Shown piece by piece: positions 32,502 through 33,962 of a stretch of DNA of 58,765 bases. Source of the stretch: Sphingomonas bacterium (GTDB taxonomy: Bacteria; Pseudomonadota; Alphaproteobacteria; Sphingomonadales; Sphingomonadaceae); the NCBI RefSeq assembly GCF_028289855.1, contig NZ_JAQGKZ010000089.1:1-58765 (forward strand). The letters run 5' to 3'. The translations under genes and the position numbers were made by a program. How positions within the stretch are numbered: the stretch's first letter is position 1; every line of letters starts with the position of its first letter. A model generated the notes under the pieces. It searched no databases. It saw nothing but the letters and a program-made list of their open reading frames with translations, and was not told where the DNA came from.

Positions 32502-32678
32502 GCAATGTTGGATTTCGTCTGACACCCACGATTCACATTGCAAGGTCAACAAGACAATGAAGAACGTCCTTTTCATGGTGTCACATGCGCGAGCTTCGGT
32601 AAATTTCGGTCGGCACCTTGCGCGTTCATGTGATTGCTGGCTTGGCAAATCACATTGCAGTGTGATAATCGGCGGATC
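32502..32678 (+). promoter_or_regulatory. Putative regulatory region upstream of ribBX with repeated ACATTGC motifs
   Basis: This AT-richer stretch has an exact repeat of TCACATTGCA at 32533-32542 and 32650-32659, and an inverted copy of its core (GCAATGT) at 32502-32508. The proximal copy is half of an 18-base palindrome, ATCACATTGCAGTGTGAT, at 32649-32666 (8 of 9 pairs match), 12 bases before the ribBX ATG. TCACAT at 32581 and ATGTGA at 32629 form another inverted pair. No FMN riboswitch (RFN element) is recognisable. The motif positions suggest an operator for a helix-turn-helix regulator, possibly RibBX itself. Confidence 0.5.
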
Positions 32679-33962
32679 ATGAGCACCATGCTGATCGATC
32701 GCGTCCGCGATCTCGTCGCCACGGGCGGGATTTCCCGCTCCGGTCTTGCCCGCGCCGCCGGGCTCCACGCCAATTCGCTGCGCAGCCTGGACGAGCAGGA
32801 ATGGAACCCCACCGCCGACACGCTGAAGAAGCTCGAATCGTATCTGACGCTGCGCGAGAAACGCCCCGCGCTGGTCCCGATCGAGGAGATCATCGAGGAA
32901 GCACGCAACGGCCGGATGTTCATCCTGGTCGACGACGAGGACCGCGAGAATGAGGGCGACTTGATCGTCCCCGCGCAAATGGCGACCCCCGACGCGATCA
33001 ACTTCATGGCCAAGCACGGCCGCGGGCTGATCTGCCTCGCGATGACCAAGGACCGCATCGACAGCCTCGGGCTCGAGCTGATGAGCCGTCACAACGGCAC
33101 GCGGCACGAAACCGCCTTCACCGTCTCGATCGAAGCACGCGAGGGCGTCACCACCGGCATCTCCGCACACGATCGCGCGCGCACTGTGTCGGTCGCGATC
33201 GATGCCGCCAAGCACAAGGCGGACATCGTCACTCCCGGTCACGTCTTCCCGCTAGTCGCGCGCGACGGCGGCGTGCTGGTCCGCGCCGGCCATACCGAGG
33301 CGGCGGTCGACGTGTCGCGGCTGGCCGGTTTGAACCCGTCGGGCGTGATCTGCGAGATCATGAAGGACGACGGGACGATGGCGCGGATGGACGACCTCGT
33401 CGCGTTCGCCGACCAGCACCGGCTCAAGATCGGCACGATCCGCGACTTGATCGCGTATCGCCGCCAGCACGACCACCTCGTCGAGCGCCGCGCCGAGGCG
33501 AAGTTCATCAGCCGCTGGGGCGGCGACTGGACCGCGCGGACCTATTACAACAAGGCGACCGGGACCGAGCAGATCGCGTTGATCAAGGGCCGGATCGATC
33601 CCGACAAGCCGACGCTGGTCCGCATGCACGCGATGAACGTGTTCGCCGACATGTTCGGCGAAGAGGGCACGCGTGGCGGCTTGCTCCCGCGGTCGATGGA
33701 GTTGATCGGCGAGGCCGGATCGGGCGTCGTCGTGTTGCTGTCGCCGAGCGGCGCGGGCGGGTTCAGCCAGGCGCTGGAGCGCAAGGCGGGCGGCCCGCCG
33801 GGCGATGAAATACGCGATTACGGCGTCGGCGCGCAGATTCTGACCGAATTGGGGGTCGAGGACATGATCCTGCTGACCAACACCCACCACACGCTCGTCG
33901 CGCTCGACGGCTACGGCCTGTCGATCGTCGGCGAGCGCGCGATCAGCGGCGGCGGCAACTGA
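32679..33962 (+). CDS. ribB: HTH-RibB-RibX fusion: 3,4-dihydroxy-2-butanone-4-phosphate synthase with N-terminal DNA-binding domain
   Basis: The 427-residue protein has three parts. Residues about 1-60 form a Cro/XRE-like helix-turn-helix (SRSGLARAAGLHANSLRSLD, then WNPTADTLKKLESYL). Residues about 65-265 are a complete RibB, with DDEDRENEGDLIVPA near 85 and VRAGHTEAAVD near 202, which turns ribulose 5-phosphate into the four-carbon unit of riboflavin. The remainder resembles GTP cyclohydrolase II (DYGVGAQILTELGVEDMILLTN), but the zinc cysteines of the GDxFxSxRCDC motif are missing (HAMNVFADMFGEEGTRGG), so that part is probably inactive (a RibX domain). The ATG at 32679 is preceded by an operator-like palindrome. 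Its stop overlaps the ribH ATG. Confidence 0.93.
   Translation: MSTMLIDRVRDLVATGGISRSGLARAAGLHANSLRSLDEQEWNPTADTLKKLESYLTLREKRPALVPIEEIIEEARNGRMFILVDDEDRENEGDLIVPAQMATPDAINFMAKHGRGLICLAMTKDRIDSLGLELMSRHNGTRHETAFTVSIEAREGVTTGISAHDRARTVSVAIDAAKHKADIVTPGHVFPLVARDGGVLVRAGHTEAAVDVSRLAGLNPSGVICEIMKDDGTMARMDDLVAFADQHRLKIGTIRDLIAYRRQHDHLVERRAEAKFISRWGGDWTARTYYNKATGTEQIALIKGRIDPDKPTLVRMHAMNVFADMFGEEGTRGGLLPRSMELIGEAGSGVVVLLSPSGAGGFSQALERKAGGPPGDEIRDYGVGAQILTELGVEDMILLTNTHHTLVALDGYGLSIVGERAISGGGN

Follow-up and report, generated by a model that had tools for sequence, protein, structure and literature searches.

We identify in Sphingomonas a riboflavin biosynthesis protein in which a metabolic enzyme is fused to an N-terminal domain with a predicted DNA-binding fold, to which sequence-model matches are weak. 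We propose that this protein, HTH-RibBX, is very probably a bacterial trigger enzyme that would bind a palindrome in its own promoter and repress ribB, or ribB together with ribH, a reading drawn from sequence comparison. Its gene lies in a riboflavin cluster of the window, by which we mean the whole 58,765-nucleotide stretch analysed (Table 1).

Palindrome and helix-turn-helix (HTH) head occur together. Fetched loci were oriented by tblastn and searched from -300 (or the locus end) to +10 for TCACAT-N4-ATGTGA, leaving out L081, L082, L113 and L114 (window copies or other genes) and counting our own genome once, as L083. At no more than two mismatches the palindrome was present in 82 of 83 loci whose protein carries the HTH and in none of 114 scorable HTH-less loci (115 in all, one too short to score). 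Among the 83, 49 sites are exact, 23 have one mismatch, 10 have two and a single locus (L186) has three. Once identical upstream regions are removed, the palindrome is present in 81 of 82 HTH-bearing loci and in none of 113 HTH-less loci, of which 49 are from Sphingomonadales; the Fisher p is 4.7e-55 and ignores shared ancestry. The same search of coding windows of these loci returned 0 of 83, 89 permuted half-sites gave a mean of 1.1 and a maximum of 26 (TCAATC), and other spacers reached at most 15 loci compared with 82 for the spacer of four. The putative operator is thus conserved with the predicted DNA-binding domain. The preliminary description had envisaged an enzyme joined to a regulator that acts on an operator of its own; orthologues with the fusion do keep the upstream motif and those without it do not, and this core idea would stand on the comparison.

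Eight of the nine mirrored position pairs of the palindrome, ATCACATTGCAGTGTGAT, are complementary, and its consensus is TCACAT-N4-ATGTGA. The window by itself holds two matches at no more than two mismatches against 0.94 expected, which is not beyond chance; the significance of the site comes from the comparison among relatives and not from the single window. An 18-base palindrome had been claimed upstream of the gene, and it is both present and conserved in relatives. Repeated copies of TCACATTGCA had also been claimed, and here the picture changes: the second site that relatives conserve is not the copy at 32533 but a half-site lying 32 bp 5' of its counterpart within the palindrome. Among 55 measured pairs of successive right half-sites, 49 have a spacing of 31 or 32 bp, a period of three helical turns, and one relative (L008) carries two complete palindromes at a distance of 32 bp. 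This repeat suggests paired dimers. It recalls the C.Esp1396I structure, a tetramer on a natural 35-base site according to its entry title. The third, weaker copy, TCACATTGCAAGGTCA, occupies positions 32533-32548 of the window, 146 nt before the start codon; it is only partly kept in the nearest relative, L084, with three mismatches, and we do not adopt it as an operator.

The palindrome sits in the -35/-10 spacer of a predicted sigma-70-like promoter, just 5' of the start codon. This promoter, TTGGCA-16-GATAAT, matches at 10 of 12 positions with a spacer of 16, and was the one site found by the promoter scan against 0.1 expected. A logo aligned on the palindrome (81 distinct upstream regions, with L081, L082, L083, L113 and L114 left out) favours TTG 5-7 bp 5' of it and TA at its 3' edge. 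In 55 of 82 HTH-bearing loci the start codon follows 12-14 nt after the best site, and we predict that the ribB mRNA is near-leaderless, starting at or beside the ATG. A -35 of the TTG type could be placed in 74 of 82 HTH-bearing upstream regions, although just 33 reach 8 of 12 matches and the -10 hexamers are varied and weakly conserved across relatives.

We infer repression from the position of the operator inside the promoter. HTHs of the lambda type placed in a promoter spacer usually repress. The HTH protein could instead bind the operator and activate, re-shaping the -35/-10 spacer in the manner of MerR-type regulators, as the location of the operator in the spacer and the weak hexamers of many relatives, common at activated promoters, might suggest. 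We consider this unlikely: MerR activators need an over-long spacer of 19-20 nt and have a different fold, whereas in the window the predicted spacer measures 16 nt and the operator extends into the -10.

Table 1. Positions, strands and supporting evidence for the features of the riboflavin locus, in window coordinates.
Feature	Position	Strand	Basis
ribD	30772..31806	+	PF01872 and PF00383; start approximate; 5' of fusion gene
Riboflavin synthase gene	31806..32411	+	Pfam Lum_binding; 5' of fusion gene
Distal half-site ATGTGAT	32628..32634	+	32 bp 5' of the palindrome's matching half
-35 hexamer TTGGCA (predicted)	32642..32647	+	promoter scan; TTG over-represented there in logo
Proximal operator (predicted), palindrome ATCACATTGCAGTGTGAT, family consensus ATCACATTNYRATGTGAT	32649..32666	.	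sequence; 82/83 HTH-bearing loci; logo
-10 hexamer GATAAT (predicted)	32664..32669	+	overlaps 3' edge of operator; start codon 9 nt further
HTH-RibB-X fusion gene	32679..33962	+	427 aa plus stop; Pfam domains; start and N-terminus conserved in homologues
Predicted HTH, residues 1-65	32679..32873	+	alignments; AF2 model; XRE/Cro/C1-like fold matches
RibB (DHBP_synthase) domain	32883..33458	+	PF00926, E 4.7e-85; invariant motifs
X domain (residues 270-419), resembling GTP cyclohydrolase II but lacking the zinc cysteines	33486..33935	+	PF00925; alignment to 4i14
ribH (lumazine synthase)	33962..34381	+	PF00885, E 5.2e-41; overlaps end of fusion gene

Exact sites across the family point to the promoter of the fusion gene itself as the target. 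Of 249 Sphingomonadaceae genomes, 103 contain the palindrome without a mismatch, 97 of them at one place and six at two, compared with a single genome for the reversed-pattern control. RibB was found in 243 of the 249; of these, 230 were classified, by the start of the best match alone, and divide into 191 with the HTH, 34 without and five intermediate. All but one of the 103 exact-site genomes are in the HTH-bearing class, and for 100 of the 109 exact sites the start of the fusion gene follows at a distance of 6-81 nt. With about one exact site per genome, located at the fusion gene, the target appears to be the gene's own promoter and not a wider riboflavin regulon, an option we rejected on the grounds that 97 of 103 exact-site genomes have a single site, nearly always at that gene.

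The nine exact sites elsewhere comprise second sites in G160, G271, G256, G261, G224 and G163, together with sites in G211, G162 and G077; with the exception of G211, inspection by eye revealed no riboflavin gene near them. The G211 site, from a 67%-complete genome, falls within the 3' end of the fusion gene, and ribH begins about 100 nt further on (L246 1481-1496). The second exact palindrome of G160 is 144 nt before a gene for a phage terminase large subunit (L238 1486-1501), a position that fits a phage past of the HTH. HTH-less G077 carries two palindromes 31 bp apart, one exact and one imperfect (L241 1473-1520), in a region with no recognised gene and no HTH homologue; another, perhaps mobile, protein may share the operator specificity. 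The host genome has two palindromes at one mismatch, that of the window and G000:C138:14773, and by eye no riboflavin gene was found beside the second.

These distributions bear on whether an unlinked transcription factor, of the CRP/FNR type or another, occupies the palindrome while the HTH of RibB does something else. Such a factor is brought to mind by the TGTGA/TCACA halves, which CRP boxes share, and by the double site of the same layout in HTH-less G077; binding by the HTH is itself a prediction. The order of the half-sites is, however, opposite to that of CRP, and we rejected the CRP-like reading on this inverted order. TGTGA-N6-TCACA at one mismatch occurs in one of 83 upstream regions, the N4 form in none and the N8 form in 10. 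The concentration of exact sites at the fusion gene, and the absence of the motif before HTH-less RibB genes, paralogues in the same genomes included, also speak against an unlinked factor, which we regard as quite improbable.

The N-terminal domain spans about 60-65 residues, and homologue alignments show GLHAN[ST]LR to be invariant or nearly so. Matches to Cro/C1 HTH models are weak: HTH_26 (E 0.0088) scores 16.7 bits against a curated Pfam cut-off of 22 and HTH_3 scores 14.4 against 23, phrog_8, a transcriptional regulator, matches at E 1.3e-5, and precomputed PF01381 appears on four of 120 homologues among the matches listed. The AF2 model of the domain has a pLDDT of 83.6, and its nearest structures include DNA-binding domains of the XRE/Cro/C1 type, none at E <=0.001; the best 60 hits of a PDB sequence search are mostly chance matches to T4 lysozyme, plus two HTH chains. 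The fold predicted for the head may be that of XRE/Cro-C1 regulators such as HipB, SinR, C.Esp1396I and phage Cro-like proteins, from which the head differs in being joined to an enzyme and in scoring below the Pfam cut-off. The weak Pfam score would also suit a decayed remnant with no DNA-binding function, the upstream conservation then being that of an ordinary promoter. We find this very hard to credit, given the near-invariant GLHAN[ST]LR, the failure of HTH-less orthologues to keep the palindrome, and the two-fold symmetry of the site made up by the conserved bases, a site better conserved than the hexamers. A class-wide scan with the HTH matched 12 of 385 genomes, four of them family members and the other eight weak. 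The order-level relative G047 encodes a stand-alone 94-aa HTH homologue, divergent from an S24-type CI-like repressor (L184 946-1230, minus strand), a possible source of the fusion's HTH domain.

Beyond its head, the protein has the composition of RibBX. Pfam assigns DHBP_synthase to residues 69-260 (E 4.7e-85) and GTP_cyclohydro2 to residues 270-419 (E 6.6e-32), and the same two domains are found in all of at least 120 homologues among the matches listed. The RibB motifs DDEDRENEGD and GHTEA are invariant in an alignment of 21 homologues. The X domain lacks the zinc cysteines (HSEC..RRCDCG) that Mtb RibA2 has in the same alignment, and a separate GTP cyclohydrolase II (GCHII) with zinc cysteines (HSEC..KCDCG) is encoded elsewhere in the host genome. 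Because the RibB motifs are kept, the zinc cysteines are absent and a separate GCHII exists, the fusion protein is, by its sequence, RibBX plus an extra N-terminal head. Structure comparison agrees, the closest folds to the X domain being 4i14 and the RibBX 6mnz; only the overall fold of the full-length AF2 model was used, residues 135-159 and 186-204 having a pLDDT below 50. The order of HTH, RibB motifs and zinc-less cyclohydrolase-like domain given in the preliminary description is therefore borne out by Pfam and alignments, with the HTH as a predicted fold.

RibBX of Shewanella is reportedly the subject of work by Brutinel et al. in 2013. In the portions of the literature consulted, the RibBX proteins of Shewanella, A. 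baumannii (6mnz), Aeromonas and Bradyrhizobium likewise combine RibB with a zinc-less GCHII-like domain and have ribA separate, and that of Aeromonas belongs to an operon of ribD, ribE, ribBX and ribH that resembles the cluster of the window. Those portions do not describe an N-terminal HTH in known RibBX proteins, unlike the predicted HTH of the window's fusion, and the HTH-less loci compared here have no TCACAT-N4-ATGTGA before the gene.

The cluster of the window runs from ribD through riboflavin synthase and a 267-nt gap to the fusion gene and ribH. We place the start of the fusion at ATG 32679, conserved in homologues, and not at the TTG 32634 of the mechanical open reading frame list; the closest named protein among the matches listed is from Sphingomonas panacisoli, at 95%. 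ribH is presumed to be co-transcribed with the fusion gene and lies immediately 3' of it in 31 of 43 HTH-bearing loci other than the window (12 of 43 differ), and the riboflavin synthase gene precedes it in 28 of 42. The scan of the window found no operator before the riboflavin synthase gene. Within ribD, positions 31438-31510 add about 23 residues in frame. The DNA of this insert forms an inverted repeat and is apparently a palindromic element of the REP type that is translated as part of the enzyme; five other relatives compared lack it, and the ribD of S. lenta (L010) has a comparable insert at the same loop.

We propose the following mechanism. RibB is dimeric in known relatives. The head of RibBX would fold as a helix-turn-helix and bind TCACAT-N4-ATGTGA in its own promoter as a dimer, the RibB dimer presenting two HTHs to one palindrome. 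Filling the -35/-10 spacer and touching the -10, the bound dimer would keep RNA polymerase out, and a second dimer could be seated on the upstream half-site, 31-32 bp away on the same DNA face. As the enzyme, or a ligand-bound form of it, accumulates, ribB and usually ribH would be turned down; ribD and riboflavin synthase, encoded upstream, would escape this control. The near-leaderless mRNA would offer a riboswitch no leader in which to fold, and homeostasis would fall to the protein instead.

Whether such a circuit would also read a metabolite divides our proposal further. HTH-RibBX could be a metabolite-gated, one-protein replacement for the FMN riboswitch, with the dead X domain sensing flavin or the state of the pathway, a version that we put forward tentatively. 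The likeliest modulator would be a ligand bound by RibB or by the vestigial X domain and, if sensing exists, either of these domains is a better candidate for it than the 60-residue HTH, the part to which the preliminary description had tentatively given that role. In the special case of autorepression that senses concentration with no metabolite, the protein would simply buffer its own level. That is the simplest reading of an autoregulated fusion, the HTH brought no extra ligand domain with it, and X domains are also found in HTH-less relatives; we hold it to be a serious possibility, if short of an even one. For Shewanella RibBX, the part of the source consulted reports that the X domain regulates RibB activity, by a mechanism given there as unknown (PMC10012899), which makes the X domain the first suspect as sensor and lends plausibility to a ligand-gated form over plain autorepression. 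With the HTH fusion, X-domain sensing in RibBX becomes testable, since the state of the domain may be read as promoter activity. If the X domain is indeed the sensor, a bacterial family would run riboflavin feedback through a pathway enzyme acting on its own promoter.

The archaeal regulator RbkR is an HTH fused to a riboflavin kinase domain, and the preliminary description had suggested a bacterial counterpart. As a functional analogy this holds, both proteins being enzymes of the riboflavin pathway with an HTH; it fails for the enzyme itself, since a kinase domain is absent and only PF00926 and PF00925 were found. The enzyme of HTH-RibBX is a predicted DHBP synthase, and the evidence points to its own promoter as target. 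RbkR is listed as both gene regulator and enzyme in the part of a survey consulted (PMC8305020). The E. coli trigger enzymes PutA, BirA and NadR are likewise metabolic enzymes that double as transcription factors, in other pathways, as far as the sources consulted go, and one of them, in the portion seen, classes PutA as a single-target regulator (PMC8249747). Among the matches listed, our literature search found no riboflavin member of the DNA-binding trigger enzymes, and titles and abstract openings contained no description of an HTH-RibBX fusion, most of the subscription literature lying outside the reach of that search.

Head and operator also appear to have been lost together. A tree inferred by a quick method from the RibB-X part of 89 sequences, with SH-aLRT support, requires four changes for the HTH and four for the motif, and well-supported branches force at least two changes. 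The motif follows the HTH in each of the two supported independent pairs, a number too small for significance. Two HTH-less Sphingomonas clades of 24 and 5 rows nest among HTH-bearing rows and, on this sequence evidence, are best read as joint losses of head and operator. The 20 HTH-bearing genomes with additional RibB genes have 23 such copies, all HTH-less and matching only from residue 53 onward; the palindrome was found in none of the 20 checked of these 23, including L228, whose whole locus was searched, and the 20 loci gave no Rfam match or riboswitch nearby. Of 24 order-level relatives, 19 gave a match that extends to the C-terminal end, and all 19 lack the HTH.

The part of the source consulted names FMN riboswitches as the main control of riboflavin genes in bacteria (PMC13028884). 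The FMN riboswitch (RF00050) has the same inferred task as HTH-RibBX, feedback on rib genes, and differs from it in being an RNA leader. Its claimed absence from the window is confirmed and extends to the host genome; none was found in 37 genomes of the genus, our own included, and under strict filters a single one of 249 family genomes (G223) has it and the other 248 gave none, compared with four of 24 order-level relatives. Many other bacteria give such gene control to a riboswitch, whereas protein-based control by a pathway enzyme with a defined operator is predicted in 191 of the 230 classified Sphingomonadaceae genomes. The HTH-less Sphingomonas have neither HTH nor riboswitch, so neither device is obligatory. 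A general rule by which the HTH replaces the riboswitch is unsupported: those HTH-less Sphingomonas lack the riboswitch too, and only G223 swaps one for the other.

In G223 an FMN aptamer precedes ribD-ribE-ribB-ribH (L236 1551-5064), the proteins being 36-47% identical, and the one RibB match of the genome has 50% identity and no HTH. G068 and G161, which share the genus code of G223, have the fusion and the exact operator. We read G223 as one probable case in which an acquired riboswitch operon took the place of the HTH system. Together with the HTH-less clades of the family, this riboswitch-bearing genome supplies natural controls for loss or swap of the circuit. Near its rib operon lies a sul1 RNA (RF03058, 76.7 bits; L236 6667-6722, minus strand).
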